From: Nannochloropsis salina CCMP1776
Lineage: Eukaryota > Sar > Eustigmatophyceae > Eustigmatales > Monodopsidaceae
Assembly (NCBI GenBank): GCA_004565275.1
Contig: SDOX01000110.1
Coordinates: 246-64,245, forward strand
DNA length: 64,000 bases
Reading direction: 5' to 3'
Part shown: positions 8,501 through 39,248 of the stretch, piece after piece
How positions within the stretch are numbered: the stretch's first letter is position 1
How the letters are laid out: every line of letters starts with the position of its first letter
Notes under the pieces: model-generated
The model's input: the letters and a program-made list of their open reading frames with translations, nothing else
The model's database searches: none
Told to the model about the DNA's origin: nothing
Position numbers and translations under genes: made by a program

Positions 8501-11500
8501 GGCTGCATGTGAGACGATGGGTAACGCTACAGCAATTTGCAGCGACAAGACTGGCACATTGACGGAAAACCGGATGACGGTGACGCATTGCTATTTGGGA
8601 GGTAGGGAAGGAGGGAGGGAGGGAGGGAGGGAGGGAGGGAGGGAGGGAGGGAGGGAGGGCAAGCTGGACGTCTGCGTGGATGCGAGGAGAGAGGTGCCCA
8701 AGCCGACCTCACAAACAGTCGCCGGCCCCTTGGTCGAAGCTCACTGACCTGTGACACCCTTTCCCCTTAGATCTGGGCCCTCAAAACCGTCTACCGCCGT
8801 CCCTCCCTCCCGCCCTCCTTCGGCTCTTGGGGGACGGGATCTCGCTGAATACGACGGCGAACCTGGACAAGGGAAGCCAGGACGGGAGGGAGGACGCGGG
8901 GGAAGGCGGGGTCGGCGTGGGGCAGGTGGGGAGGGGGGCAGTTGGCGTTCGATGGGCTCTACTTTGGTTGCGGGGGACTCGTCTCTGTGGGCGTGACTTG
9001 AACCTCCCGCATGACATGTTTAACCCTCGCTCTCTCTCCCGACCTTGCACCCTAGAACGGCCTCCCCTCCCTCGGCTCTTCCTCCTCCCGCCTGCCCTCC
9101 TTCCTTCCCTCCCGCCTGCCCTCCTTGCTGTCCTCCCTCTCCAAGCCGCCCGTGAAGATTCTGGGGAACAAGACCGAAGGGGCACTCCTCCTCTTCGTGG
9201 ATGCCTACAACGTGGACTATGACAAGGTGGACCCCCTCCCACGCCTTCCCTCCCTTCAATTTCCCTCTTTGCCGTGTTTCCCCGCACGAATGCACACCTG
9301 TTGCTCACCCTCCCTCCTTCCCGCCCTCCCTCCCTCCTTCCCTCCCTGTTCTCTCCCTTCTCAATCCAGGTGCGAGAGAACTACAGGGGATCCATCCAGT
9401 ACAACCCTTTCTCCTCCAAACGGAAGAAGATGAGCGTCCTGGTCCCCGAGGGGGAGGGCGGTGGGAAACAGAGGGTGCTCTATGTGAAAGGAGCAGGTAG
9501 GAGGGAGGAGGGAGGGAGGTAGGGAGGGAGAGAAGGGGTCTGGAGGCTTCTGTAGGGTGGGCTGGGAGAGCAATCCTTTAAATACCTCTCGGGAAGGGAG
9601 GGAAACGAGGGGGAAGAGAGGAAGAGGGAAGAACCTGAAGGTAGAGGCGAAGGGGGAAGGGAGAGGCACTGACACGGGCTGTGGGGAGGGAGGAAGTTCG
9701 GTGGGAAGAGCGAGTCTACGTCGTTCTCTGACGAATGCTATTCCTGATGCCCTTATTGCCCTTCCCTCTCCTGTCACCCTGCTTCTCGGCAATGGTCAGC
9801 CGAACTGATCCTGGCATCCTGCACCCACATTTGCGGCGCGGAGGACGGGAAGAGCAAGCCCTTGGACGCGGAGAAACGGAAGGAATTGGAGGAATATATC
9901 ACCACGCTGGCCAAGCAGAGCCTGCGGACGATGAGGTGGGAATAGGAGGGAGAGGGGGAGGGAGGGCGGGAGGGAGGGAGGATAAGACGGAAGGGGTGCA
10001 GATGTCCCTAGCCTTTGCGAATTTATTCTTGCCCTTTCTTGTCTTGTACCTTTAATGGTCCTGAATTTTACTTTTAGGCGCGGTGGTTGTGTCTGTGGCT
10101 TCTCTCTGGAGGGTAGCACGTCTTTGTAGGGTACAAAATGCCTTCTCTATATCCAGAGATTCGTCTCTCGGCCTTATTGACCTTTTTTCTCCTCTTTCCT
10201 CACCTGCTGGACCCCGCGCGGCCCTTTATTTCCCACGTTTCTTTGTATATATTTCCTTCTCATCTTTTCCATCTCCCTCCCCCCTTCCAATCAATAGTTT
10301 GGCTCATCGGAGCATCGACCCCGCCAGCCTGTCGAATGGCAAAGCCGCCGGCTTCGGGGAAGGGGGTGGCGGGGGGGTTGACCTAGATGAGCTTGAAGAG
10401 GGCTTGACGCTGGACGCGATAGTGGGGATCACGGTAGGTGTTCGCTGTCTCCTTTGCTCTCTGTCTTGTCGGTGGTGCGGAAGGGGGGCCAAGGGGGGGG
10501 GAAATGCCGGTTCAAGAGAGGATTTCGTTCGATCGTGCTAAATTGATATCGGGGCTTTGCACGGTGCACGTCTGTGCGATGGTGACCCTCTTTTCCCTAT
10601 ATTTAATTCTTGCATTCTACAACCCAAGCGTATGCGTGTCATTTAAGGGAGCACCCTTTTCCACGCTCACCGCACCCCATCCACCCTGCCGGGGCACTGT
10701 AGTCCTTCCTATCTCTTTCTAAGACTGATTTTACCGAATCGTAAGCTACCTTCCTAGCCCCCGTGGCTCACTTCATCTCCATATTGACCTCTTGTTCTTT
10801 TTCTCTGGCATTTTGAACAGGATCCCCTCCGACCCGAAGTCAGTGAGGCCGTGCGTGCCTGTCAGAAAGCAGGTATCATGGTACGCATGGTCACGGGAGA
10901 CAATGTGGAGACCGCCAAGGTAGGCAGGGGGAGGGAAGGGGGGGAGGGGACCAGTGTCTCGCCTTTCAAGCAATCTATGGTGTGTGTCTCGGTGCAGTCG
11001 GAAACGGGCGATTCATTGCACTCATGGCGCCGATTTTCCTCCGTGGCACGCCACTGCCAATATCAATATCTTAATTTAAATATGTATTTATATATATATT
11101 CTCATATGGGTCCGATGCCACCCGTCATTCCATACGGATTACCCCCCTTCCCACCGTTCCTGTCCCTCTCTCTCCCTGTCCCTCACAAAAAGGCCATTGC
11201 CCGACAATGTGGGATCCTCACCTCCTGCGGGACCGTGATGGAAGGCCCCGCCTTCCGCGCTCTGACGCCGAAGCAGCTGGACCTCGTCCTCCCTTCCCTG
11301 CAAGTCTTGGCCCGTTCCTCGCCCGACGACAAGCACACCCTGGTCGCCCGCTTGAACGGGACCTTGCCAGAGGACCAAGCCGAGTGGGAAAAAGCCCACC
11401 CGGGAAAATCGTGGGAAAGGGAGCGGGACGGGCTCTTGCCCGGGTACTTGGAGGAATGGGCCGTCTCCCGGGGTGGGGTCGGGGAAGTGGTGGGGGTGAC

Positions 11501-12602
11501 TGGGGATGGAACTAACGACGCACCGGCCTTGCGGGTGGCGGACGTGGGCCTGTCGATGGGTTTGAGCGGCACCGAGGTGGCCAAGGAGGCGTCGGACATT
11601 GTGATCATGGACGATAACTTCGCCAGCATTGTCAAGGCGGTTCTGTGGGGCCGGGGGGTCTTTGACAACATTCGGAAATTCTTGCAGTTTCAATTGACCG
11701 TCAATGTGGTCGCACTCACCATTACTTTCCTCTCCGCCGTGTCCGGGTATGACCCTCCCCTGAATGCGGTGATGATGCTGTGGGTGAATTTGATCATGGA
11801 CACCATGGGGGCGCTCGCCCTGGGAACAGAAGCCCCCACTCCGAATTTATTGGTGCGTCGTCCTTACAAGCGGAACGCCTCACTCATCTCCCGAACCATG
11901 TGGCGCAACATTTTGGTGCAATCCGGGTACCAAATCATCGTGCTGGTCCTCCTGCTACTCCGGGCGAACGACGTGCTGGCCTTTGAGGGGTGGTGGGTGC
12001 ACCGGCGCGGCTCGTCTCTTCCCGCCCCCATCGAGATGGGTTCCACCCGACACATGACGTTGATCTTCAACGCCTTTGTCTTCTGCCAAATTTTCAACGA
12101 ATTCAACGCCCGTTCCTTGGGCGACGACGTCAACATTTTGCGTGGCTTGGAAAAGAATCCGGTCTTTATCGGCATCATTTTCTTCACGGTCGTGGTCCAA
12201 TGGGTGGTTGTTCAATTCGGGGGAGAGTTCACCAAAACGGCGCCCTTGAGCGCGGAAGAGTGGCGGGCCACGGTGCTGCTGGGCATGTGCGCCATCCCCT
12301 TAGGTGTAGCCATGCGTTACTTACCCGTGAGCGAGAACCCGGACGATTTCGGAGGGACGGCAGAATCCGGCTTCGAAAACGTGGAGCCGTCGGGGGACGC
12401 GAAGCAAGCCTTAGCCCAGGCGCCTGCCCTCTATCACGTCCATCACCATGGGGCTCGGCGACGGGCACAAGTGTGGCGGTGGCTTGGCGTCCTTTTCCAA
12501 TTGTCCGTCTTGCTGGTCGTGCCCGTGCTGGTGGGTATTTGTGTAAAGGACCCGGAGCGTTGCCAATCCCTGGGGAATTTTCTTGACTTCTACAAGTTTT
12601 AG
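5593..12602 (+). CDS. Plasma-membrane-type (P2B) Ca2+-transporting ATPase, 18 exons
   Basis: It pumps Ca2+ out of the cytosol using ATP. By eye the exons are 5593-5649, 5757-5855, 6099-6240, 6412-6563, 6754-6837, 7145-7232, 7398-7540, 7700-7731, 7856-7925, 8147-8281, 8469-8601, 8771-8925, 9056-9226, 9370-9496, 9800-9935, 10298-10433, 10821-10919 and 11193-12602. Every join keeps phase and gives 1122 residues. Landmarks are an N-terminus [11 protein letters not shown] typical of P2B pumps, actuator loop NESSLTGEA, helix-4 PEGLP (about 317-321), phosphorylation site DKTGTLT (Asp about 360), nucleotide-binding GNKTEGALL, hinge TGDGTNDAP (about 756), and the C-terminal helices. A Gly/Ser/Pro insertion sits in exons 12-13. 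The long unbroken last exon carries the whole C-terminal membrane domain. Introns carry CCCT tracts before acceptors and GGGA tracts after donors. Family assignment is secure; the exact first exon is good but not proven. Confidence 0.92.
6355..6396. repeat. CCCT tract before a 3' splice site
   Basis: An (TCCC)n run of about 40 bases lies in ATPase intron 3, a little upstream of the acceptor at 6410-6411. It serves as, or extends, the polypyrimidine tract. Confidence 0.85.
6838..6882. repeat. GGGA tract right after a 5' splice site
   Basis: ATPase intron 5 opens with GT and runs straight into poly-G and (GGGA)n for about 45 bases. Such a tract could form G-quadruplexes in the transcript (inference). 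Confidence 0.85.
7555..7622. repeat. Mixed CCCT/CACT tetranucleotide tract in an intron
   Basis: (CCCT)n changes to (CACT)n and back within ATPase intron 7. The same CCCT/CACT mixture recurs near 43575-43620 and, in reverse complement, at 36090-36165. Confidence 0.8.
7936..8146. repeat. Intron with paired GGGA (5') and CCCT (3') tracts
   Basis: ATPase intron 9 (7926-8146) has GGGA repeats at about 7939-7980 near its donor and CCCT repeats at about 8088-8132 near its acceptor. The two tracts are complementary and could fold into a long hairpin in the pre-mRNA (inference). Confidence 0.75.
8602..8660. repeat. Long GGGA tract after a 5' splice site
   Basis: About twelve GGGA units directly follow the donor at 8602 in ATPase intron 11. 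Confidence 0.85.
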
Positions 12603-13625: not shown

Positions 13626-16600
13626 ATGACTCCTCTGTCTCCGACGACGGAACGATTGCGTTCCTTACTTTTCAGTCTGGCTGCCACCGTACGGCTGATC
13701 GGGCGGGGGACCAGGGGGGGCAGTAGAGCCGATGTGCTCACAATCGTTCATCAAATAACCCACCAGAGTCGAGTATCGCTGTCAAATCCAAGGATTTGGA
13801 ATGATGAGAAAATGACCATAGTGGCGCTATTATTTGACTCCACGGAACCGCCGGATTTATTGACGTTTTTAAGTGGGGGAGGAATAAGTTCCCAAGACGA
13901 GGGCAGAGAAGCGGCTGAGAGCCTTCGAAAGAGCAAGGAACAGGCCCTTATTTTCATATATGGCCTTATCAAGACACACCATGCATTAAAACTACTTCAA
14001 GGGTATGAAGGTCTCATTTTCCATGCCGTCTGGGGCGTCTACCGTCGGTCTGCAGGGAAGGTCAGAGGCATTTCCGAAGTCCTGTATCGCGACCTAAGAG
14101 TGGTGGCTTTACTCCTCCGTTTGTATCCTGAGCTCATAAATGAGCAGGTACAAATGGAAAGGGAAGATGAAGATTCGAATTACTTCTTGAGGGAAGAAGG
14201 TGCCCGGCGACACGAGCAAAAAGAGGTGGGGATGGAGGAAGAGGAGGAGGAGGAAGGGGAGGAGGAGGAGGATGCGTCACAGAGCGAAGAGGACAGCGAA
14301 GGCGAAGAGGAAGCAGAGATATCGAAATTTGTGGGCCCATGGGGCACAAAGGCTGGGGGAGGACACGGTCCTTTGCACATGGCAGTGCATACGGAAAGAC
14401 GACGAGAGATCCCGGTCGGCTATCAAATGCTGCGGGTCTTCCGCCGCCAGAGACGAGGTGTCAAGGGCCAGGCAAAAGCCACCCGGATGTACGGACAGGA
14501 AATGAAGACTGTGGCACTAGTTTTGGCGTTGATCTGGGAGCAAGTGATGGTAGAGGAGGACAGAGGGGCGGACGGTGGGTCGAAGATGGTCTTAAACGAA
14601 AGTCGCTTAGTAATGGAGCATTGCCAAGCGTTGTTGAGTAAGAGAGAGCCCCCTCAGCCAGACATAGCCGCCGGCATATTTGGAGCAATCGATCGACTCC
14701 TTAATATCTCCTCGGGACCGTTTGAAAATGGAAGAAGGGAGGACGGGAGGGAGGGGGGGAGGGAGGGAGGGAGGGAATTCTTATTCACACGGATGCGGGC
14801 CATTCTGGACGACTTTGTGCGAGGAAAACTAAGTCGGTACGCTCCAGTGGCTAAGATCCTCCGGCTTATGGAGCACCACGCCATCTTCTTTCGGGCATGT
14901 CTGACAAAGGAGAAGGGGACAAAGGGAGGAGGAGGCTTGATGCAGACGTTGGAATGGATCTCTGGCGTGTATCAGAGAGCCCAGCAGGTACGCCGAAGTA
15001 CACGATCTTGTTTCCCACTGTATTCTGGCTGGTACAATGCCTAGCCTTGCCCCCTTATAATTCCCGCCTCCTATTTTCCACCGCTTGCTCAGGTCAAGTC
15101 CTCCTCTTCCACCATCGAAAAACACGCCCTACCCGCTTGGGAGGCCGTCGTCACTCTCCTCGTGATGGAATGTGAGGAGCGTCAACGCTCCCTTCCTCCC
15201 TCCCTCCACCCATCCCTCCATCCTGACGTCATCCCTTTCCTCTCCCACTTTCAACGCCGGCTTCTTGACGCCCCGGGGACATGGGCCGAAGCGCTTGCAA
15301 CCGCTCGTGGGATCGGCATCCTAGCACCACTGTGGGCGGTGGCGCCGACAAAGGAAGGGAAGGAGGGCGGGAAGGATGGAGAAAGGGGTGTTGGAGGACT
15401 AGGTCCCTTGCTCCTTGATTTAGCCACCTTGGGGGAACGGATGCTCTCACAGTTGGACAAAAGTGCGGAGGAGGAAAGTAGAGAAGAAGGCGCGGGATGG
15501 TATGCTCTCCTACGTACATCGTTTGCCGTGCAATGGCGCTCGACGTTATTGGAGGCCACGGCGAGAATACTCGTGGCTGGCGTCAAAGAAAGGGAGGGCA
15601 AAAAGAAAGGGAAGGGACGGATTGATTTCCTGGGGGCAGCGCACCGAGCCTCTTTGGACTGGTGCGTTTCCATGGCCGCAGCGGTGGTTGGGAGCTACTG
15701 GAAGTTTCCTCGAGAACGTTCCGGGACTCGTCGGGCCTTGACGGCGATATTAAAAGCGTTGGGCGACATGCAACGCAAGGAAACGGAGGAAATGGAGGGT
15801 AGGAGGGAGGAAGGGCCATTGAGAGTGTTTTTGAACGCGGTGCTCCCTGTGGGAATGCTGCGGGTGGTATCAAGAGAGGATGTCATGAACGAGACAACTA
15901 GGAAGGAGGAAGCGGAAGTCTACGCGGGATTATGGCGCGAAATCATTGTCGCTTGCGGTCTTACAGCAGAAGAGGCGGAAAAGGGGCAAGAAGCCGTGGG
16001 TGCATCGGTACTACGGGGGCTTGTTGAAGAAGGAATGTTGAAGATAGTAGAGCGATTAGACTTGCGCTACACACTGATGATTGTGCCAGCCAAGGACGAT
16101 GCGGAGAAAGGGAGAGAGGTGGAGGAGGAGGAAAAATTGATCCCGTTCATGCCCATGGACCAAGAAATCCTCCTGTCTCTGACTGCTTTTTGGGAAAGCC
16201 TTTTCGCGCACGCCTTCCACGCCCCTCTCCTAGTCTCGCACATTCCCCTGGTGGCACCCCTCCTTGTCCGCCTTTCCTTGGCCTCTCCCGCGGTGTCCTG
16301 CCTCTATCGGCTCCTGGGTCTCCTCTTGCGCGCCCTGAAGGCGACGCAGGCTTTGCAAGGGTGGGACTCTGTAAGCAGAGGAGAGCAGGATGAGCGAGAG
16401 GAGGGAACGGGCTTGCAGGAAGATGCTGCTTGTCCCCGCTCGCGCCTTCCTCCTCCATTCACTTCCTCCCTCTTGGCCGCACCAGACATTCAGGCCCTCC
16501 ATCGGCTTTTTTCTAGCTACCTTCTTCGCGTCCTCCGGCGTCTAGACACGTTTCAAGATGAACTTTTGCTCTCAGCCCTCGGCATGCTCCTTGCTGCACC

Positions 16601-19600
16601 CCTCCCTCTCCTGCCCTTTCCCCGCCTGCTTACTGCCCTCCACCTCGCGCTTATCATCGGGACGGCCCATGCCCCCACGGCCCATGCAGCAATGCTGGTG
16701 CTCGAAGAGTGGCAGGAAGCAGCGGCGGAGGAAGCGTATCGACGTGGTGACGAGGAAGGAAGCGACGGAGGGCTGGTTGCTGCGTTTGATGCCTGCCTCC
16801 CCCGTATTTTACCTCTGTTTGATCGGTATTTGCGGGGAGGAACAGGGAGAGAGGCGGCTCCCAGAACGGAGCAAATAACCTTCCAAAAACGCATATTACG
16901 ATTTCTTGGGCATTTAGGAGGGAAAAATCAGGGAATTATCGCTTCAATGGAAGAAGAGATGGGTGAGCAGGAGGACATGGGTGGCGGGGGGGAGGGAGGC
17001 TCGGTCCACGTGGCGCTTCCATTCGAGGACCGCGCGGTGTCAGTGGTTGAGCTGGACGTATCTGTCGTGTTACCTCGGTTGCTCAACCTCGCCGAGCAGA
17101 AGGGAGAGGCACAAACCAAAGTTCTCGCATCAGAAAGCATCCATGCCTTAGTCCTCTACCTAGTGGGCCGGGGCGCCACCTCTCCCGCGTCTTCCCTCCC
17201 GCCCTCCGCCGTCTCCTCCTCTACGGCTTTCCTCCTTCGCTCGCTCTTTCCCACACTCATTCATCTGGCTGTAGACTTGAACGGGGTGATTCGTGCTTTA
17301 TTCTCCACGCTCATTTTCCAACTGATCCATTGGTACTCCCGGGTCCAGTCTGAGCACCCCGAAACTCGCGCCCTGTTGGATTCCCTCACGACTGGCTTGG
17401 CTGGTGGAGGGAAGAGGGGAAATTGTGAGGAAGATCGGGTGGGAAAGAGCGGAAATGGACCCGTGCGGCGCTTATGTGCCAGGGGCGTGGCTGAATTTGT
17501 ACGGTATGCGATCAAACAGAGCAGCAACAAGATGACTACCTCTCCTGTAGGTGTGGCATCTTTGATGGCCCGCTTGGAACGCATGGCACGTCATCCTAGA
17601 AGAAGCTTCAGGATAGGGGGCGCGTTGGCTTTGCGTTTGTCGGTCAGGTACTTACGGGAGGAAACAACTTTGGTACGCTTGTACGTCTTACGACTCTTGC
17701 AGGGGGGCTTGGAGGGGCTGCAGGTCGGGAGGCGGGCAGTGGAGGAGGAAAAGGAGGACGAAGAAGAGAAGGAGGAATTTGAAAAATTGGTGGACGCATG
17801 CTTGGCCGTGTGTCCTCGGTATTTGCGCAGAGGGATGGACACTGCCGAATTACTGGGGAGGGTGAGGGCGAGGGAGGAGGAGGGGGGAGGACCAGCATCC
17901 TTGTGGGAGTTGGTGGATTGGATATGGTCACATGCAGCTGCCAGGGAGCCCATTTTTCGCAAAAAATGTCAAGAAGCCTTGACGACCTTGCTTCCCCTCT
18001 TGCCAGACCCTCCCGGGGGGGAGCCTACTCATCCTTCTCTTCAGTTCACCAGGGTGGCCTCTTCTCTTTCGTTGTCGTCCTCAACGCTTAATTCTCGCGC
18101 TTGGAAGGAACAAAAACTCCGCCGATGGATTTGGGCCCGTGGACCCGCAGAGGTTCTGCACATCGTCGAAGGGACGCTTGTGGACGATGTGCTGCATTAT
18201 CAAGAAGGGGAGAAGGAGGAAGGAAAGCACAAACCGAGTCGCATGGCCAAGGAGGAGCAGGAGAGTCAGAGCCGGGCGAAAGAGGATTTCGAGGAGGATT
18301 GGGCGGAGACGAAGCAACGACAGGGGCCACGTGCCTCCAAATTGCGGAGAATTCAAAGTGGAATCCCGAAGGGAAAAGACGAGGGGACAAGACAGGAGGG
18401 AGGGGAAGGGTCAAAGGCAAGGGGGTGGAAGGAGAGCCTCGGCGAGGGCAAATCACCTGAAGCGGTCATACGAAGTCTGGAGACGCTACAAGCAGCCGTG
18501 GACACTTATACGTGGCTGTTCTCTCGGGGTATTTTTCCAATGTCGGCATTTTTCGGGGGCAATGAGGCCTCTGGGCCTGCGTCCATTGCATCTTTTCTCC
18601 CCTCTCTTTCGTCTGCTCCCCAGCATTCTGCTACCCTCCCTCGTCGGCCTCCTCCTCCGTCTGCATCCCTGCCTCTGAGTCCAGATCGAGGCGCACGGAG
18701 GGGGAAGGGCGTGCAGGGGGAGGAGGCGGAGGTTGTGGAGGACAAGGCGGCTTCTATGGGAAAGGAGAAACGAAAGCGGGTCGATGACTCGGATCTCACT
18801 CCTTCCCCCCCCGTCCCCTCGGCTTCCAATCTCTTGGTCTGCATTCACACCATCCTACTCCATGTCTGGACACATGGGGGAGAGGATGAAAAGGAGGGTG
18901 GAGGAGAGACTGAGAGAGGAATCGAGGCATCTGATACCCAGTCTGTGGAAACAATCGTTGCCTTACGACGCACGAGCGTCGAATCCCTCGTCCACACATT
19001 GAATTTCCTGTCCCTCCTTTTGGAAGGAGAGGAAAAGATGAGGGAGAAAGAAGAGGAGGAGACGCAGGAGAAAAGGAAGGACAAAGCGGCTACGCCGGCT
19101 CAAAAGGGCAGAGGGGCTGAAGCGCCCGAGAAAGGAAGGGATGGAGAGACCACCGACATTGGACCAGTCCGCTCCTTGGAGCGAGCCCAGCTGCTGGTCA
19201 GGGCAGGATTGTGGAGCATCCCAATGCAGCGGTTGCTGGCATGGTGCCTTTTTCACCCTTGGAAAAGGCGTTCCTCGACCGAGGAAGGTCTTGGCACGGC
19301 CGTGTGCAGCCGACCCGAAGAGGACGCGACGGTCGCTCAAGCCCTACCCGGAGCGGTCCAACGCTTTCTTCGGCATTGGCGTCTTTTGGATCAAGCGGCA
19401 GCAGCATCCACCCTGCCTGGTGCCATTTCTTCCTCCCTTTCTCCCTCCATCGTTCATACACTCCGAGGTATGCTTCCCTCGTCCCCGCCCTCCTCTTCTC
19501 CTCCATCCCTCCCCACTCTACCGCATCCGGCCACGCTCCCCCTTGACCTGTCCTCCTGCGATTTGGAAGAGAAAGAATGGGCCTTACGCGCCGTCGCCAC

Positions 19601-22600
19601 CTTGCACGCACTTGGCATGCTTGAGGGTGTTTTGAGCGAGAAGGAGGAGGGCAGTGGCGAGCGCAATATCGGAGGAAGGGCCACGGTGTCTCTGGCTCGC
19701 TATTTGTTTGACCACTTGAGCGATCCTTCCTTCCCCGTCCACCTTTCACCGAGGTCGAGGCATGTTGCGGGCTCTCTTTTCCTTCTCGCCGTCACTCTGG
19801 GACTTCCCCTGTCTCCGCCCCCCCCCGCATCATCCATTCCTTCCCCCCCCTCCTCCCGCAGCTTGACTGATGTCCTGCTGGACGTCTGTCGGGGAAGGAG
19901 GGACGATGACCTGTCGCGTGGGGCGCTTTTTCAACGGCACTTTGCGCCCGAGATCGCTGAAACCTTGGCTGTGGCTCAATCAGGGAGAGATTGTTTAGCC
20001 TTGCTGTTGAACTATGCGACCCGCAGCGAGTCGTGCGGGGGGGAAGTCGACAGCTCGCATCCTGACGAAGGAGAAACCCACAAAGAAAAGAAATTAGCGC
20101 TTGGAGGGAGCGAAGGAATGACCGAGGTAATCAAAAGCCGCCTTCACTCTTTATTTGTGGAGGTGATTGAGTGGCTCTTGAACCGGCCTGCCCTCCTCGA
20201 CCAGGAAGCCGCTGCCGTCCTCCGCCTCTGCCTCCTCGCCCCTTTCCTCCTTCCTCCCCTCCCTTCCTCCTCCTTTCCTTCAAGTTTCTCCACAGCTGCG
20301 GCCATAAACCATCTTGCACTCCTCCATCGCCTTTTCCGCTTAGAGGCCTCCCTCCCTCCCTCCCTTCGGCCCGACCTTGGGCACGACCCCCGGGTCCGCT
20401 CCCTCCTCCTCCACCTTCTGGTCAGCCAGGAAGGAGAGGTTAACGTCAAATGTGCGGCCCTCGAACTTCTTCCATACGTTCTGTCCTGTGGAGTAGGGAA
20501 GCGAGAGGAAAAGGGCGGGAGCAAAGACGGAAACGTCGATGGCGGGGAAGGCGCGCTCATGGAGGCGGTGGAGGAGGGCATAACGGCCGGGCGGTTTTTC
20601 CCCGTCGTATCCTCCTGGGAATGGGCTCCAGGGCGGGATGGAGGAAGCGAAGGAGGGAAAGACACGAGAAGGCGAGACGCCAACTACCTGCTGCTTCTTC
20701 GCGCGCTTTTGCGCGCAGTAGGGGCCGCAGCGAATTACGGTTTGGCCATCGTCGCTGTCCAGCATTTTCAGGAAGGCAGAGGGCATCGGTTTTATTCCTT
20801 GTTAAGAGCGGCTCTCCATCAGATGGTGAGGAAACTCGTCCAATTTCAATCACCCTTGAGAAAACGCACGGAGTCCTCCGTGCTGTGGCAGAGCGCGAAG
20901 GACAGGGAGGGCGGGAGGGAAGCCGAGGAGGCGACCGGAGAGGAAGAAGGAAAGAGCCCACAATCCCCCCCTCCAGTGGAAGTGGCAGTTGTCGTGTGGG
21001 AGACCTTGTTGCACGGTTCCATGGGCTACGTGAAGAAATTGCTAGTGCTGGACACCCTCTTGCTTCCCCTCTGCCAGCAAATGCCTGTCCAGGGCGGGCT
21101 CCTTGAATTTTTGCAGGCTTTCCCCCGGTCTCAGGGAGGAGGGGAGGGAGGAGGGCAAGGAAGGCGGGAAGAAGGGCAGAAAGGAAGAACATCACCAGGA
21201 CCAAGCAACCTGTTGCAGGGCATAGTGGAGATAATCGGCCAACCCCTGGTCTCTGCGACGCAGGGGGCAAAAGAAGGCGGGAGAAGGGTGGGAAAGGATG
21301 ACGAGAATGCGCTTCTCCTCCCACGAATCTGTGCCTATTCCCTTCTGAGAGTAATCTACGATCGATTTTCACCCGGCACCATCAAATCCTCCCTCGATCC
21401 TCTGATTCCATCGAACCTCATCTCCTCCTCCTCCTCCTCCTCCTCCTCCTCGGTGCTCAATCGAATCGTGGCCAAAACGGTGCCGCCCGCCTTCCGCCTC
21501 CCTCTTACTGGAGGAGACGAGAAAGAGGAGGGGACAGAGGGAGAGAACGAGCAAATGAAGGTCGAAGGGAGGGAGGGTTTGGCGTCAACAGCCGCGATGC
21601 GCCGACGAGCGGCAGTCGCTGCCTATGAATGCGTGGTGGCATTTGCTCTGAAGACGCAAAGCAAAGCACACGTGGTTGCCGCATTATGCATTGAAGCCGA
21701 CAAAAAATCCTTTCAGTGGTGTCATGGACTAGGGTATTTGAACCAGGTCTGGGGGGGGAGGGTAAAGGAGGGAAGGGGGCAGAAGGGAGGGAGGAAGGGA
21801 CAGGGGCAGGGAAGCAGGATCGGAAGGAAAATTTGCGTTGCTCGTCTTCGCTTTGGCGCTCATATCCTTCATCTCCTCCTCATAATTCCCACCTTTCCTT
21901 CCTCTTTTTGTTGCAAGATTATCGATCCTGGCAGAAATTACACCTTTAGGCCCTGGGAAAAGGGCACCAACCGTCTCCTTCCTTCTTCCTCCTCTCCTTC
22001 TTCCTCTCCTCCTCCCTCTTCCTCTTTCAAGCTCATGATTGGGAGCACCCTCGCTTATGGAGGGACGTTGACACTTGCTTTGGGTGGCTATTCGCAAGCA
22101 GGTGCCTCAATGCTCTCCCTCTCCTCCCTTGCGCCTACCTTAAGTCTAGAGGAAGAGGAGGGAGAAGTCGCGGGAGGGCTACAAAAGGAGGGAAGGATAA
22201 AGAGAGGAAAGAAGAAGAAATGGAAGGGATCGCTCACATTACAGAGCCAATTAAAGGTCCTGGAAGCGGGAGGCCGAGGGCAAGGAGATGACATGGAGGA
22301 AGAGCCGCAAGACGGGGAGGAGGACGAAACACCAGAAGAGACATCCTCCCAAAGGTCAGAGGACGCGTGGGACCCGTCCTCTCCCCCTTCCTCCTCTCCT
22401 TCCCCCTCCTCTTCCCGCGCCACTTTTGCCCCGGCGTTGCGACGACTCCGGGACTTGAACCGCGAGACCTGCATGCCCTCCTTTATGGCCGTTTTAGACA
22501 CTTTAGGCGCCAAATCCGTCCAGCGTCAGCAACAAGAGCAATCGCCGCAGTTTTCCGAGAATGGGCAGCAACGCGAGAGGCCTGCCTGGATGTTGGCCTT

Positions 22601-25600
22601 AGAGACGGCGCTGGCGGATGGGGATGAAGGAGGCAGGGGGGGAGGAAGGGAAGGAGGAGGAGGAGGAGGAGGAAGAGGAGGAGAGGGATTACACCGAAAT
22701 GCTCGCCTCTTTGTCTTGCAGGCGTGTCTGAATGAGCCTACCGCCTCCATTCTCGCTCCCTTCGTCAACGAAGGCTTGGGCAATAAGGTCCTGGTTGCCG
22801 TCACCGACCTGCTCCTGTACCCTCCCTCTTCCCCTTCCTCCCCCTGTCCCTCACCTAGCGCCTGCCACTACTTGCTGTGCGACGTTGCTGACACCTTCTT
22901 GTCTGCTTGGCAACAATACCGTCCTGCCCCTCCCTCGTCACCGGACTCTTTCACGCCCACCGCATTGGACCGCTGTACCGCTGTGCTCTGCTACTTCCTG
23001 GCGCACGCCCACGACGACATCTCTTCTCTGGTCACTCGCCGCAATCTGTACTACCTTTCTTCCCTCCTCTCCTTATGGATCGCTCCTCCTTCCATCACTC
23101 CCTCCTCCACGCCCTCGTCCATCCCCTTCTCCTCCCTCCTCCTCCAACGGCGCCATCACCATGCTCTTCGACGAGCATTCGAAGACGCCCTTTTCGCAGA
23201 GCCTCCCTCCCTCCCTCCCTCCCTCCCTCCCTCCTCCTCCTCCTCCTCCACCCTCGGGCCTTTTGGGACCCTCCTGCACCTTCTCTCTACTCAGACCGAG
23301 AAAGGAGGCGGAAAAGCCCGGGCAAAAGGAGGCGAAGGAATCCAGGCTGTGCGACGTCGTATCACCGCAGTGAACGCCCTCGCCTTGCTCGTGACGGCGG
23401 GACGCATCAACGTCCTCCCAGCCCGCCACCCCACCCTCGCCCAATCCCTCCATCGGCTCCTCCTCCAAGCCATGCAAGCGGAGAGCGTTCTGGTCTACGA
23501 AGTAGCCGCCGAAGTCGCGGGGCTCCTGCTCCGTTTTCTCTACCCGCTTTCCCCTGAAGGCGAGGAAGAGATTGGGGAGGAGGGCAAAGCCAGGGCGGGC
23601 GGATACCATGAGGAACAACGGCCGCACCCTCTTGTCCCTAACGTGGATCCGTGCGCGCAGAATCTGCCCCGGCAAGTTCGTGACTTGCTGCTGACTCGCA
23701 TACTGAGCACCGGAGATGTTGACGCCAAGAAAGGGGAGCAGGGGCCGCGGTCCGTGGTTGCCTTGGTAGGTCGGGGGAAGGGGGGGTTTAAGGAGCTGTT
23801 GGACGGGCGACAAGGGCGGGAAAGTCGACGTTTTTGGCTGGCGGTTGTGGCGATGCTAAGGAAGGTGCAACATATTCCTCCCAAAGCCATGGCGAATCTT
23901 TTGGAGGCACTGGCCGAATCCGATGCACCCCATGACTTGACGTTCCTAGAGGAGGTACTGCCCTTCCTTCCTCCCTGTTTGGTAGACACGAGTCGAGCGT
24001 TCTTGCGAGGAGCATGGCGCCCTGGCGTACAATACGGAGGCATTTGTCTCCTGAGGCGGGGGCTGAAGGAAATGATGGAAGGAGGGAGGGAGGGAGTGGA
24101 AGAGGGGACGGAGGAGGGGCGGGGAGGGAGGCAGGAGAAAGTGGCGCGAATCCTGCTAGTAGGAGGCCTCTTGGACGAAAGAGGCGACGTACCACACAGG
24201 TATGAGCCACATTCAAAGCCGTGCTTTCCCCCTCTCCCCTCTTCGATCCCTCTGGTCACTGTGATGTATGTGTCATTGTCGCCTCCATCCTGAGATCTCA
24301 TTCCCCCACCTCCTATTCCACTGCTTTGTTCCCTTCTACTGAAACCATCCCTCTTCTTCGCTCCCTATCCCACCCCAACCCGGTTTCCGTTCTCCTCTCC
24401 TCCCTCCGTCCAGCCTCATCACCTTAGCCGTTAACCCCCGGATAACCGACCTGGAGGTCCGTGAGGAAGTGTTTGGTCTCCTGATGGACCTTCATCGTTT
24501 CTTCTCCTCCTCCCCTCCCTCCATCCCTCCCTCCGCCCCTCCCCCCGCCCCTTCCTCGCACCATCGGGCCTCACCACCAGGACAGGAGGGCAAGGAAGGG
24601 AAGGCGTTGTCCTCCTTACAAGAGGAGGCTCAGAGACGCCTCTCACTCTGTTTGATCAGAGGCCTATCCGATCCCGATGACCGAGGGCTTGAGGCAGGGG
24701 AGGAGGAGGGGACCGAGGTCGCAAGGGAAGGAGGGACGGAGGAAAGGATGGTACCTGCCGAAAAAGGAATCCGGCGCCGCCTTATCGCTTTTTGGGGTTC
24801 TTTGTCCTCCACCCCATCCTCTCTCCCTCCCACGTCCCCTGTGACCAAATTGCAGTCCCTCCTCCACAACCTCCACCACCCGAGTAATCCCAGCGCTTTC
24901 CTGCCAACGACCACTTACCTCTTACTCTCCCTCTCCCTCGCTTCCCCCGCTGCGTCCTCCCCCCTCTTCCCGCAACCGTTGGCGAATGTCAAGTTCACCG
25001 ACCTACCCCTTTCCTTTCGAACCTCCCTCCCTTCCTCCCTCCCTTCCTCCCTCCCTCCCGCCATTTCCACCATGTCCCCCCTGTTCTCCTTCCGGCGCAC
25101 TTCGGCCCTCTTGTCACAAGCCACCCAGAGAGAAGGAAGGGGAAGGGGAAGAGAGAGAGGGAACACGGCATCGGGGGAGGTGACCGGATGGATACGGGCC
25201 ACTCAGGGGGGAAGCCAGGGAGCATGGGCCCTGACACAAGAGGGAGGAGAGGAGAGGGCAGAAAAAGGAAGCGGCGGCAGAGGAGGGAGCGGGATAGGGC
25301 GGGAGGGAGGGCATCAATTTACGACGGTTTCAGGTGTTGCATCCCAAGCAGGGTCCAAGGAAAGTGCTTTGATGGTTCGAAAGGCGGGTGGACCGGAGGG
25401 AGGGAGGGAGGGAGGGAAAGAGGGAGGGGCACAGGAAGGAAGGGGTTTGATGCCTCCACCGCCGCCCAGGAAGTCGAAAGGGTTAACCTGGGAGGACAAA
25501 ATGCGGGCAGGGCTGGAAGGAGGGGAGGAGGGAGGGCGGGAAGACGGTGCCGAGGAGGAGGAAGAGGAAGAAGAGGGGGAGGATGGAGGGAGGCCGGTGG

Positions 25601-28600
25601 TGCTGTACCGGCGGTATCGGAAGGGGGAACTTCCAGACATTCAAATTCCCGCGTCGGACATCATCCAACCCTTGCAATTATTGTGCCTGCGCGACGCAGC
25701 CATGGCTCGGACGCTTTTCGCGGCGATTTTCCCGCCCCTCTACGCGGAGGCCTCGGGAGGAGGGCGGGTAGGAGGGCGGAAGGGAAGGGGAGGAGGGCAG
25801 GCGGCTATGGTACAGGCGATGAAGCGGGCACTGGAAGGGTCGATGAGGGAGACGGAGTTGGTAGCAGGTGTGTTAGCGGCCTATAGGGCGGCCATGGACA
25901 CGGAAGGGAGGGAGGGAGGGGAGGAGGATGGGGAAGGGATGGAGGTGGAGGCGGAGGAGGGGGTCGAAGAGAAGGAAGACAGGAAGGAGGGCGGAGGGGG
26001 TATGTTACCGGTGCACTTGACGGCAGAATCGGGCTTGCAATCCTTGAATTTCCAAGCGGCGATTCTGGTGCTTGAGGAGGAGCTCATTCGAAGGGAAGGC
26101 ATGGAGAGGGTGGCTGGCAGGGGGAGGAGGGGTGGAGGAGAGATGACGGGCACGGGAAGGAAGAAAGAAGGATCGTCCTCGACGTTGGCAATATGGGTAG
26201 AACTGACGCGGCTTTATCGGGTATTGGGGGAGGGCGATGTGGTGCGTGGGCTGGTGGAGAGGATTGTCGAGGAGGAGGGCGAGAAGGAAGGCGGGAAGGA
26301 GGGAGGTGAGGAAAGTGCGATGACCAGGACGCGACTGGCGGTGGCCAGTGAGTCAGAAGGACATTGGGAAAAGGCGTTGGAGCAATACGCGAAGCTCTTG
26401 GAATTCTCGGAGAAGCCGGAAGGAGGGAAAGAGGGGGGGGGGCTAGGCAAGGAAGTAGTGGCTTTGTGGCATTCGCGTCGAAGGGAGTGCCTCCGCCGGC
26501 TGGGAGAATGGACACAGCTTCAGGATGAAATCGAGGCTGTTGTACAGCCAGCCAAGCAGCATTCATCGGGAGCTAGCTATTCTATCGAAGCCATGTCAAT
26601 AAACGGGATATACGACAAGCTTTGGTCTCTGGAAGAGGTCTGGCAAGGAGGGAGGGAGGGAGGTGGGGCTAGAGGAGGAGACGTGCTCGCGATGTGGATC
26701 GAAAGCTTGGTGCATCGCTTCTCTGCCGCATGTCTAGGAAAAGAGGAACAGGAGAAAGCAAGGGGAGAAACCTCCAGCGTCCTCAACCTTCAAGAAGCCC
26801 TGCTCCTTGTGGCCGATGACGCAGACGCCGCGCGTCGCCAGTGGTTGGCTTCGGCCCATCCTTCCCTCCTGGCCTCCCTCCATTTCTTCCTCGGGAATCA
26901 GGTACATGCCCAAGCGTACGTTGAGCAGGCGTACCGCACATTTATACGGTCTTGGAAAGGCTTGCACCCCTTAGCTGGGGCGGCGCGCCGAGCTCAATTG
27001 GAGGGGTTGGAGTACTTGGTGGAAATGGAGGATGCCCTGCGCATTTCTCGCACGCTCCCTCCTTCCTCGTCCTCTTTCCCTTCCTCCTCTCTTACCCGGT
27101 CCCCTTCTTCGTGGGAGGGGAAGCGTCTGTTGCGGGGCTGGCAGCTGGCCCCTGCGCCTGTGATGGAAAAGGACCCTCCCTTGGTCTGGGCGAATGTTGG
27201 CATGTTACGCGAATGGTCTTTGTCCACCCCTCGGGAAAGAGACGGCCACGCCCCAAGCCAAGATATGGACGAGGAAGAGGACATGCGAGACTTTCGACGG
27301 GAGAGGTATTGGCATCATTTAACCTTTTGGCAACGTGCCGCCAGGGCTGCCGTCAAAGAATGGGGCGAGGGGGTAGTGGCGATGCAATGCTGGGAGAAAG
27401 CGAAGGTAGCCTTCCACAATTGGAAGTTCCTGGTCGATCCAGAGGAAGAGGAGGACAGCGAAAGGATCGAGACCCTGGTGGGAGCCATGTTTTCAAAGGT
27501 ATGGGCCGCGCAGATTCGATTGTTTGTCGAGTTGGACAAGTGGAAATTGAGGCAGGCAGTGGAGGAGGGAGGGAGAGGAGGCGCGGCTGTCGTGGAAAGA
27601 GTGCTGTGGGGTCGGGCGGCGAAGGCGATACGACAAAGATTGATGAGTTTGGAAGGTCGAGAAAGCGGGTCGCAAAGCCGGCGCGCATGGATGGAAGCCA
27701 TGCAATTCAAAGCAGAATGGTTCGAATTGGCCTCCGGATTTGTAACCAAGCGGATTAAATGGGAAGTCGGTCAGGAGAGGAAAAGAGATGCTTTTCTTTG
27801 TTCGATCGCAAAGAGCTATTGGAAGGTGTGGAGAGGGCAAGAAACTCAGGATGAGACTGCAGGTTTTAATGTAGCAAGCCTGCGCCAGGACTGGCTACAT
27901 GAGACGTACCAAGCATACAGGGCGGTCATGACTGAAGAGAAGGAGGAAAGGAGGCGATGGGGAAGAGGCACCCGGACCGTGGCACGAAGGGCTGCAAAAT
28001 TTGCACGCTTCTGTGACAGGCTTGTGAGAGAGCGGAGGGAGGACATGGCACAGGAAGGAAAGCAGGGAGGAGAAAGCGAGCACCTTTTCTCGCCCGCTGC
28101 GCTGACAGCACAGGCCATGGAGCGATACTTGGAAGCTCTGACATGGTGTCCTGCCGAAGCCCCAGCAGCCTTACCCCGCCTCGTCGACATGATTCGCGAA
28201 TCCCACGACCCCTATGAGCCACAAAGCAATGCCCGGGTCGCCCGCGAGGTCCTGCAGAAATTCGCCGGTTCGGTACCGGCTTGGATTTTTCTGCCAGCAG
28301 CCTCCCAGCTCTTGGCTGGGTTGGACGCGCCAGAAGCTGAGGCAGTCCTGCCGGTGCTCCTGCGGCTTGCTCAGGCCTACCCACAGGCCCTCTTTTACCC
28401 CTACCGCGTCGCAAAACCTGGCTTCACTTCCATGGCGTTGGCGTATGCCCAGGAACTGGATCGTCTTCTTCAGCTCCCTGCTTTGGAGCGTTTTGTGGAA
28501 AATGTGGCCATGCTGGTGTCTTTTCCGGTCGCCTGGCGAGGTATTTTAGGCCGGATCCGCTCCCTGCTGCAGGTGGGAGACGTCCCACAGGAGGAAGTAC

Positions 28601-30436
28601 AGCATGTGTATGCCGCGTGGAGGGAGACCTTAACGGAGAGTTCTGCGGAAGATCGGGGACTGTATACGCGCGGCTGGATGAAAAATGAGGTAGCCAAGAG
28701 GTTGGATCCCAAATTGGGTCGTAGAGGTGAGCATTTAAATCGACAGACCCTTAAGGAAGTGGCCAGCGACTTGGCATTGAACGTCCAGGGCACGCCCAAG
28801 CATACGCAGGAGCGCATTGAGAGATACAGTCTCTGGCTCGCACGGTATCGTATGGAATGTGGCGACGGCGATCATAAAATCGAGATCCCAGGACAGTACG
28901 ATCGAAGGTACGGGCGATGGGAGAGCCCACCCAGGCCCGACCTGCACGTTCATCTGGTGAGCATCGATCCCCTGGTAGAGACGCGTACCTCCAAACAGCT
29001 GCCGAGGAAGATTGTGTTGCACGCGGACAATGAAAAGAGCTACCCTTTCCTGGTGAAAGGTGGGGAAGACTGTCGGAACGACGAAAGGATCGAGCGGTTG
29101 TTCGAATCCATGAACGGGATCATGGCCGCCGACACCGCTTGTGCTCAGGACCGGTTGGAGTGTCGGACGTTCAAGATAATTCCCCTCTCCCCGAGCCTGG
29201 GGTTGATCGAATGGTGCTCGAATACGATTGTTCTAAGGTTGGCCATCGAAAAGGGGAGCCGCAGTAGGGGTGCTCAGCTCGCGGTCTCTGAACACGACCA
29301 TAGGGGAAAGCGGGGGCATCCACCTCGTACCTCGGAAAGGTTCAAGGAAGAGAGAGAAGATTCCTTTGAGGTCCTGGCGCATGACTATGCACAGCTTTAC
29401 CCATCTGTGATGGATTACCATACCGGGTATCGAACCCTGTCTCCGAGCAAGGCGGGCGAGAAACTTGCCGCGTTCCATGCACGGGTTCCCTGGAATGGCC
29501 TCCGTCAGTACTTGCTCCTGCTCGCTCCCAGCCCCGAAGTCTTCTTGACCTTGCGCAGCACTTTCGCCAAGAGCCTCGCTGCTTTTTCCATCTGTTCCTA
29601 CGTCGTGGGCGTAGGCGACAGGCACCTGGAGAATTTCTTGCTGGACACCCGTTCGGCGTGTGTCGTGGGAATCGATTTCGGAGTCGCCTTTGGGATAGGG
29701 GCGTCCGCGTTGCCAGTACCCGAGCTGATCCCTTTTCGTCTGACACGGCAGATGTTGAATGTTCTGCGGCCGTTGGATAGCGAGGTAGGTAGGGCACAGG
29801 TCTGTGATTAAGGGAAAAAACGCGCCCTTTCATGTCCCTTGCGACCACAATGATCCGTACCTGACCTTGTTTCTCCCCCAATTTTGAATTACGCCCCCGC
29901 AGGGACTGCTGCAAATTGCCATGCAAAAAGTACTTCACGCCCTTCGGCGGGGCGAAGACCTTCTCCTCCCCACCATGGAGCTCTTCGTTCGAGACCCCAT
30001 TTGGGACTGGGCAGGCGCGCCGGGCGGGCAGGAGGCGGACAAGGAGAGTGCCCCCTTGTCCGCAGGAGATAGGAGGAAAAACGTCACAGGAAACAGTACC
30101 ACCCAAGAAGAAGCATATCGAAAAGTAGGGCTGGTCAGGGCAAAATTGCAAGGGGCCAACCCCAGGCAGGTGCTACTGCACGATCTGGCAACGAATCCCC
30201 ACGTGGCCCGATACGGGAGCTTCGATGGCATTCGACAAGCAGTGGAGGGACAGCTGGGGAGGGCACGGACCCGGTGGTGTCCAAGTCGAGGGGAGAAAGG
30301 AAAAGAAGGAGAAAGAGGGAAGGGGAGGGAAATGGACATGCTGACAGTGGGAGAGCAAGTGGAGGTGCTGATAGACCTGGCTACGGATCCGAACGTGCTA
30401 ATGCGGCAGTACGTAGGGTTGGCGCCCTACATGTAA
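13626..30436 (+). CDS. PRKDC: DNA-dependent protein kinase catalytic subunit (DNA-PKcs), giant PIKK
   Basis: This is a PIKK Ser/Thr kinase that, with Ku, acts in non-homologous end joining of double-strand breaks. Exons by eye are 13626-14987, 15093-24199 (probably with an in-frame intron 21747-21917), 24414-29784 and 29903-30436. All phases match and give about 5400 residues, longer than the roughly 4100 of animal DNA-PKcs. The long N-terminal part looks helical-repeat-like with low-complexity insertions. The kinase domain shows FLVKGGED (ATP-binding Lys about 4981), GLIEW, GVGDRHLENF (about 5167) and GIDFG (DFG about 5187). It continues with PVPELIPFRLTRQ, which is the DNA-PKcs rather than the mTOR/ATM/ATR form. 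The FATC tail is LTVGEQVEVLIDLATDPNVL, ending GLAPYM. GREGG and PPSLPPS insertions come from GGGA/CCCT tracts in exons. Family is secure from the kinase/FATC part; the N-terminal exon structure is less certain. Confidence 0.9.
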
Positions 30437-30998: not shown

Positions 30999-32003
30999 TC
31001 ACGACACTAGGCTTGACAGACACCAGGTCAAGGTCTTCCCGCACCCCATCACCCCTCTCACCATCACGCCGCCCAAGACCCTCAATCCTGCCGGTCCCCC
31101 CGGCAGGAAAGCGAGCAGGTACCACACAAAGGCCCCAATTTGAACTCCCGTGGAGGCGACCACCCAGAGGTAGCTCCGCAAGATCAAGGAGGCGTACAAG
31201 GTGAGAAGCAGGGAGCCCAGGTAAGCGACGGCGAACGGGAGGCGTTCCCACACCAACAAGGATTGCAAATGGACGCGGGGGCCGACCAGGACCGAGAAAC
31301 TCCCCATGGTACACAGGCTGCCCAAGGTTGCACTCAGTGCAAATTTGACGGGTCGGAAGACGATGACAGGAAGGCCCACGAAGAAGGCCAGGAGGTAGAA
31401 CAAAATGCCCACCAGCAGCAATGCCACGAAGCCCCGCAGACGTGCACCGTAGTTCAAGGTGCTCTCCACAGTGGCTTTCGCCCCTCCTACGAGGCCTCCA
31501 TTGCCCTCCCCGTCGCCCCGGATGCTGGTGATAAACCGGTCGGCAAAGCCAGAGACTTGGTCGTGGGCATCCCCCAGGCCTCTGTCACGGAAAAAACGGC
31601 CCACGTTGCCAAGCAGGCCAGATTCGATGTCGCCGTTTCCTGTGTGTCGATAGTGGGATGGGGGGAGAGGAAGTCAGTTTCACGCATCGGAAGGCTGAGA
31701 GGGGAGACAGGAGCGCGCAGGGAGACGGACCGACGGACCATGTCGATGTTTGAATCGATAGTTGGGTCTTTTTCTTTTCACCATTCGTGCATGTGGGGAC
31801 ACCGAGGACGACGGGAGAGGTCTAATGCCGCGCCTCAGATCTCTCATACTCGAACCAGTACCATTTAGACACCCACCCTCTCCTATCTGTCCTGCAACCA
31901 TACCTTCTTCTTGCCGTTGTTGAGCCGCGTATTGCGTGTACCAGTCCCCAAAGGACTGGCTCCCGCCTCCTACTGCTGGATTTGTGCCACCAGAGTTCTT
32001 CAT
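30999..32003 (-). CDS. SFT2: SFT2-family vesicle transport membrane protein
   Basis: SFT2 proteins are small four-helix proteins of Golgi/endosome membranes that help vesicle fusion at the Golgi. There are two exons on the minus strand, 32003-31904 and 31639-30999. The donor GTATGG and acceptor ACACAG keep phase, giving 246 residues (an ATG at 32015 would add four). The N-terminus is hydrophilic. Four hydrophobic segments follow: FVALLLVGILFYLLAFFVG; the family-typical FALSATLGSLCTMGSFSVLV followed by GP; FAVAYLGSLLLTLYASLIL; and YLWVVASTGVQIGAFVWYL. The order and spacing fit SFT2. It is arranged head to head with TMEM258, with about 460 bases between starts. Confidence 0.85.
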
Positions 32004-38001: not shown

Positions 38002-39248
38002 GTGCCATCATACCATCTCATCCACAGCTTCTTTTCGCTTCTCCTCCATCAACCTCTGCCAACGTCCGCCTTCCTCCACCCATTCCCGTCGTTGCCCTCC
38101 CGTCCCTGCCCTCCCCCCCTCCCTCCTCCCCCCCTCGGTCTCTCCCCTTTCGCTCCCTTCCCCACGCTCGGCGCCATCCCCCCCGTGGTTCTCACGGAAG
38201 GAGAGACGGAGCGAAGCAGCGACTTGCTCGCGGAGCTGGACGAACTGGCAGGGGAGGGAAAGTACCAGGAAGCTTTGGCTTTGGTCGGGAGTGGGGGGCA
38301 TGTGGTGGGGCCGCCGCACTACCACAAGGTGAGGGGAAGCGGGGCCAAGCCTTTTCCATCGAGCCCATATATGTATGGGAGCGAGTGTCTGGCTTTTCCA
38401 TCGGCATATGGACGCTGGCATGGTCTGGAGTCTTGATGGCTTCCCTTGTCTGTCCTCGTCGAGCCTCTCCCGGCGCTCTTGTCCTCTTATCTACCGTCGC
38501 TCCCTCAACCTCCCACCCCTCTCCCCTCCTTCCCGCCCTCCCTCCTCCCCAACCGCTCCCTCCTCACCCTTTCTGCCCTTTCCCTCTCCATCTCCGGCGA
38601 GTCCAGGTCATTGCCGCTTGTAAGGCGATGGGGCAGTGGGCCGTGGCCGTGGACACCCTCCAGGACATGCGAAGGCGCCCCGGCATGCAGGTAGGGAGGG
38701 AGGGAGGGAGGGAGGGAGGGAGGGAGGGAGGGAGGGAGGGAGGGAGGGAAGTGGACGTTCGGTNNNNNNNNNNNNNNNNNNNNNNNNNNNNNNNNNNNNN
38801 NNNNNNNNNNNNNNNNNNNNNNNNNNNNNNNNNNNNNNNNNNNNNNNNNNNNNNNNNNNNNNNTCTTACCCTCCCTCCCTCCCTCCCTCCCTCCTCAGAC
38901 CCTCTCGATCACCCGCCATAAATCCACCGATGGCACCCCCTGGTGCGACAACGACTGTCCCTCAGACTTGAACGTGGAGCTCTTCTCCGCCGCCGTGCAG
39001 GTGAATTGGGGGAGGGAGGCATCCCTAGGGACGCCGTCTCGCCGCGTGATAATGAATATGATAAGGGGACAAAGAACTTTTACATGAGCGTCCATTTAAA
39101 TCATCGACTCCCTCTTTTTCTCTCCTCTCCTCCCTCCCTCCCTCCCTCTCGGTAGGACCTCACTCATTTCGACATCACGCAAGCGCGGAGCCTGTCCACC
39201 CTGTCCTGCGAAGGTCCTCAACCCAAGAAGTACAAAGAAAGGGACTGA
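38002..39248 (+). CDS. PPR-like repeat protein, interrupted by a scaffold gap
   Basis: Visible exons are about 38002-38328, 38607-38690, 38899-39000 and 39156-39248, joining in phase. Segments such as LLAELDELAGEGKYQEALALV and VIAACKAMGQWAVAVDTLQDM have the helix-turn-helix look of pentatricopeptide repeats, which bind RNA in organelles (inference). The final part contains TPWCDNDCPSDLNVELFSAA, and the gene stops at TGA 39246-39248. The first 60 or so codons are Pro/Leu-rich and may be intron or targeting sequence, so the start is uncertain. A gap of 100 Ns between exons 2 and 3 may hide further repeats. Family call is tentative. Confidence 0.5.
38691..38751. repeat. GGGA tract leading into the scaffold gap
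   Basis: About fourteen GGGA units directly follow the donor of the second PPR-like exon and end just before the run of Ns. The other side of the gap opens with a CCCT tract (about 38870-38893). Confidence 0.85.
38764..38863. other. Assembly gap of exactly 100 N
   Basis: A 100-N run is a conventional placeholder, so the real distance is unknown. It lies inside an intron flanked by GGGA and CCCT tracts. Confidence 0.99.

Follow-up and report, generated by a model that had tools for sequence, protein, structure and literature searches.

Within a 64,000-nt stretch of the Nannochloropsis salina CCMP1776 genome (SDOX01000110.1; hereafter the window), positions 13626-30436 of the plus strand very probably hold an orthologue of DNA-PKcs (PRKDC) that is intact in sequence and probably active and of which no second copy was found in this genome. 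DNA-PKcs is a giant kinase that in animals keeps broken DNA ends together for repair. DNA-PKcs-specific Pfam models, the ranking of PDB matches and a kinase tree all bear out this identity, which an earlier note on the same DNA, made from its letters, had proposed.

Gene model

The coordinates and four-exon layout of the earlier note hold against reading frames, GT-AG splice signals and phases, and the gene it called complete-looking is apparently intact at the sequence level, as a model predicted from splice signals. Four exons and three GT-AG introns of consistent phase give a coding sequence of 16,374 nt and a protein of 5,457 residues, with a sole, terminal stop. The start ATG at 13626 lies six codons past an in-frame stop, and the stop codon ends at 30436. 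The middle frame runs without stops over 3,082 codons, and in each of the four exons GC is lowest at the second codon position, which is not chance. Were the possible in-frame intron listed below (its length a multiple of three) to be removed, the predicted protein would have 5,400 or 5,405 residues.

Features of the gene (all on the plus strand):
13626-14987, +, exon 1, N-terminal part: 454 codons, open frame, phase-0 GT donor at 14988
14988-15092, +, intron 1: 105 nt, GT-AG
15093-24199, +, exon 2, N-HEAT and M-HEAT solenoid: Pfam DNA-PKcs_N, CC1-2 and weak CC3, phmmer
16029-16724, +, DNA-PKcs_N (PF20500): 40.4 bits
17232-17732, +, DNAPKcs_CC1-2 (PF20502): 90.4 bits
21747 or 21762 to 21917, +, possible unrecognised in-frame intron: GT start, pyrimidine run then AAG, 171 or 156 nt
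22443-22619, +, weak DNAPKcs_CC3 (NUC194) match: 18.3 bits, under the 28.9 cut-off
24200-24413, +, intron 2: 214 nt, GT-AG
24414-29784, +, exon 3: end of M-HEAT, ABCDE loop, YRPD, FAT region, bulk of the kinase
25114-25239, +, ABCDE-like cluster, residues 3724-3765: aligned to human 2609-2647
25498-25593, +, acidic tract, residues 3852-3883: opposite human residues 2736-2767, the DNA-end-blocking (DEB) helix, in the alignment
25615-25677, +, YRPD motif YRKGELPDIQIPASDIIQPLQ, residues 3891-3911: pattern match, metazoan form
29041-30013, +, PI3K-like kinase domain, spanning intron 3: PF00454 scores 130.7 bits on the exon 3 part and continues into exon 4 below threshold
29785-29902, +, intron 3: 118 nt, GT-AG
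29903-30436, +, exon 4: end of the kinase, FATC, stop
30341-30433, +, FATC domain, ending GLAPYM: 27.0 bits against a cut-off of 25.3

Identity of the kinase

All three models specific for DNA-PKcs (DNA-PKcs_N, CC1-2, CC5) score above their Pfam cut-offs, as do PI3_PI4_kinase and FATC. In the PDB the top match is human DNA-PKcs for exon 2 (human residues 700-1200, phmmer, 112 bits, with E values of at least 0.2 for all others), for exon 3 (303.6 bits versus 115.6 for mTOR) and for the kinase part (201.9 versus 121.7 bits). The kinase is 41.1% identical to human DNA-PKcs, and identities to the other four human PIKKs in the comparison are 26.7-32.0%. A phylogeny with TOR, ATM, ATR and SMG1 did not move the kinase away from DNA-PKcs: in a tree of ten rows (five kinases from the algal genome, five human) algal and human DNA-PKcs group with support of 100/100 and each algal kinase stands beside its human namesake, the TOR, ATM and SMG1 pairs being starred as well and the ATR pair reaching 94/95. 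The tree leaves out two further places in the assembly, the FATC locus on C69 and the kinase match at C37:1032416, and its SMG1 pair joins a long-branched algal row of odd composition to a 209-residue human piece. As for the strings that the earlier note took to be DNA-PKcs-specific, PVPELIPFRLTRQ is found in the kinase and resembles its human DNA-PKcs counterpart LPVPELMPFRLTRQ; LIDLATDPNVL is present near the end but had to be rejected as a marker, because the ATM and SMG1 of this genome likewise carry ATDP in their FATC ends.

That shared ATDP is what might favour seeing in the gene another PIKK (TOR, ATM, ATR, SMG1 or TRRAP) carrying DNA-PKcs-like strings. Yet the kinase tree rules this out, the PDB ranking and the DNA-PKcs-specific Pfam models speak against it too, and separate TOR, ATM, ATR and SMG1 kinases exist in the genome, so that to our minds such an identity is barely conceivable. 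Another scenario, in which exon 1 or part of exon 2 comes from a different gene and the enzyme is shorter, draws on the lack of detected homology in exon 1: it has no convincing Pfam match, and comparison with the human DNA-PKcs N terminus detected none either, hence this exon is joined to the rest by splice sites and frame. However, the junction is GT-AG and in phase with no stop across it, and the first Pfam match, at residue 767, enters the DNA-PKcs_N model (810 positions) at its position 519, which leaves several hundred residues to be expected ahead of it. We therefore regard a separate N-terminal gene as very unlikely and keep to a single DNA-PKcs gene of four exons.

The assembly in which the other kinases were sought comprises 26,503,672 bases in 103 contigs. 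It has six FATC matches, that of the window included, and the PI3/PI4 kinase model matches at 19 places, of which a minority was classified. Kinases at four other FATC loci match best mTOR (551.6 bits), ATR (302.1), ATM (351.9) and SMG1 (152.0). A further multi-exon FATC gene at C69:35511-38675 has TOR-like C-terminal letters, besides the TOR on C19, and the kinase match at C37:1032416 is a candidate for a presumed TRRAP. At the SMG1 locus on C96, a 4,882-codon open frame, about 1,570 residues separate the kinase and FATC matches.

Functional marks

The catalytic motifs PFLVKGGED, GDRHLEN and IDFG are in place, as is FRLTRQ. The ABCDE-like cluster, which lies before YRPD, has S3724, T3727, T3753, S3757 and T3764, each before Q; these are five of the 28 SQ/TQ sites of the whole protein within 41 residues (3724-3764), a density reached in 0 of 2,000 whole-protein shuffles and in 4 of 20,000 when residues 3700-3780 alone were shuffled. 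HMMER places T3727, T3753 and T3764 opposite human S2612, T2638 and T2647, and S3724 and T3727 have the same three-residue spacing as human T2609 and S2612, although the aligner placed a gap there. At the positions of human T2620 and S2624 the algal protein has no SQ/TQ, and the region of the PQR cluster falls outside the phmmer alignments to human DNA-PKcs. YRxGxxPD, said in PMC8549938 to be invariant across the DNA-PKcs family, is found in the algal protein by pattern match, and residues 3891-3911 fit the metazoan YRPD pattern exactly, preceding YR included.

Size of the protein

At 5,457 versus 4,128 residues the protein is about 1,330 longer than human DNA-PKcs, in agreement with the earlier note, which had called it larger than the animal enzyme at about 5400 residues. 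Low-complexity windows take up 1,346 of the 5,457 residues and leave 4,111, near the human 4,128, with the proviso that the cut-off for masking was chosen arbitrarily and that no equal masking was applied to human DNA-PKcs. The last such run ends at residue 4688, and the final 769 residues (end of FAT, kinase, FATC) are free of runs. Runs of low complexity located in loops largely account for the residues beyond human length. ATM and SMG1 of this genome lie in stop-to-stop frames of 4,193 and 4,882 codons, which also exceed the human PDB chains (3,056 and 3,661), in a comparison that uses open frames rather than gene models and leaves out the intron-split TOR and ATR. Greater length thus looks like a habit of the Nannochloropsis salina genome rather than a trait of DNA-PKcs.

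End-joining partners and the Ku80 question

Ku70 is present in the genome with vWA, barrel, arm and SAP domains, and two ligases are nearest LIG4 (C15, 232.9 bits; C93, 83.6 bits), so that the earlier note's call for end-joining partners is answered in these, but not for a full Ku80. The two LIG4-like, ATP-dependent ligases lie at C15:782640-783350 and C93:57185-57715. Both have BRCT matches, the C93 one lying at the cut-off, and in two stretches their mutual identity is 25-30%; a third ligase lies on C86. Two places match the DRMBL nuclease model (C99, 65.2 bits; C18, 41.9 bits), either one a candidate for Artemis, and two give modest matches to the polymerase X palm (C1, 33.8 bits; C12, 25.2 bits).

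Several observations weigh against an intact and active DNA-PKcs. Among the profiles that the earlier note named, PI3K/PI4K and FATC exceed their cut-offs, but NUC194/CC3 stays below its own and the Pfam FAT model has no match in the protein. Human 2736-2767 is the helix in contact with the DNA end (PMC8549938), and the stretch aligned to it without gaps has a net charge of -11 versus +3 in the human enzyme; since this alignment crosses low-complexity sequence, the helix may lie elsewhere instead of being lost. Human T3950 lies opposite an alanine in the kinase alignment, which rules it out as a conserved site, and the FATC end reads GL (GLAPYM), in contrast to the GW or GY of the genome's five other FATC ends. 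Among the partners, an XRCC4 model found nothing in the genome in a search whose control gave no signal, and full Ku80 was not recovered from it by profiles, by human and Arabidopsis queries or by the tip pattern.

Searches of the genome with PF02735 (Ku barrel) and PF03731 (Ku_N) returned Ku70 alone, and PF08785 (Ku_PK_bind) returned nothing, its control giving no signal. Human Ku80 as query matched one vWA-like place on C57 (E 0.007), while Arabidopsis Ku80 matched Ku70 (E 0.003), the C57 place (0.037) and a weak third one (0.57). With a two-sequence Ku80 profile the C57 exon scored E 2e-6 within its 9 kb, with otherwise noise there; by Pfam it has sub-threshold VWA_2 only and no Ku_N. Located at about C57:1401292-1401962, these Ku80-like vWA exons have no recognisable Ku barrel after them, and a run of 100 N follows roughly 1.7 kb downstream. 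The codon pattern of the Ku80 tip, allowing up to two mismatches, hit five places with two mismatches each, none Ku-like or at the end of an open reading frame; all five, including C72:810461 (AVDELFDM), were rejected, 33 to 319 residues preceding the stop, and the reversed control hit 0 places. As the Pfam Ku model scores the plant Ku80 query at 2e-44, a Ku80 of plant type would have been expected to show up if its exons were long. A Ku80 with Ku_PK_bind and a DVDDLLDM-like tip was thus not found in the same genome, with an assembly that is possibly incomplete and a Ku_PK_bind search that is uncontrolled; loss of Ku80 from the assembly would be the simplest cause.

By analogy with the human enzyme, a double-strand break would let Ku load onto the end, the HEAT cradle would dock on Ku and DNA, and two kinases pairing across the break would phosphorylate each other's ABCDE loop, which would make the ends accessible to SNM1-type trimming, polymerase X and LIG4. 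NUC194/CC3 is reported to dock the Ku80 tip, whose motif is said to accompany DNA-PKcs (PMC8549938). Could DNA-PKcs here work without the standard Ku70/Ku80 platform, on Ku70 with a shortened Ku80 or directly on DNA, Ku80 being degraded or lost? Such a scenario would fit Ku barrel and Ku_N models that match Ku70 alone, the confinement of the human Ku80 match to C57 with a weak addition from Arabidopsis, the empty Ku_PK_bind and tip searches and a report of eukaryotes with Ku70 but without Ku80 (PMC11936186). However, the assembly is split into 103 contigs with an N run downstream of the C57 exons, short exons can escape a six-frame search, Ku_PK_bind lacked a control signal and the C57 piece is itself uncertain, so we consider this scenario unlikely. 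Less likely still, on the sequence evidence, is a differently recruited and opened DNA-PK in which a full, apparently active DNA-PKcs would be combined with a Ku80 that is vWA-only or gone and with a DEB helix turned acidic; if true, this would break the reported pattern in which DNA-PKcs and the Ku80 tip motif occur together.

Neighbouring sequence

Just upstream of the DNA-PKcs gene, at 10788-12599 (+), lies the C-terminal part of a cation-transporting P-type ATPase (PF00689), and just downstream on the opposite strand, at 30999-31670 (-), a Got1/Sft2-like membrane protein (PF04178). The window has a run of 100 N at 38764-38863.

Relation to known DNA-PKcs proteins

Kinase relatives in viral and genome contig collections were not confirmed (2 and 30 pattern stretches), with one single-protein query each, which reaches only close relatives, and with records near the source genome possibly left out. 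Among literature titles and abstract beginnings none concerned DNA-PKcs in Nannochloropsis, diatoms or other ochrophytes, which is no proof of absence. Oomycetes are stramenopiles. Since PMC8549938 reports the DNA-PKcs family in oomycetes, its presence in a stramenopile is not new, and the algal gene is a further, well-preserved member, in what the earlier note took for a plastid-bearing branch. Three dinoflagellates are listed with DNA-PKcs as well (PMC6680887, Table 6), and with oomycete and dinoflagellate proteins the likeness is one of reported family membership alone. DNA-dependent kinase activity had, according to PMC9303282, been shown only for the proteins of some vertebrates, and an apparently intact DNA-PKcs beside TOR, ATM, ATR and SMG1 in a genome of just 26.5 Mb offers a simple setting for asking about its role in non-animals.

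With human DNA-PKcs the algal protein shares domain order, catalytic motifs, the ABCDE-like SQ/TQ cluster, YRPD and the kinase clade; it differs in its extra length and low-complexity residues, in a CC3 below cut-off, in the alanine at T3950, in the GL of FATC and in the acidic stretch at the DEB position, which makes the end-plug model testable. Like green-plant DNA-PKcs, it keeps the equivalent of T2638, called invariant in plants in PMC10419180, and has S/T at the equivalents of T2609 and T2647, as most plants do. In the plants studied there, however, YRPD lacks its last Gln and carries another residue in place of the preceding Tyr (PMC10419180), whereas the algal motif has both. The full metazoan YRPD, missing in green plants, would be either older than that split or convergent.

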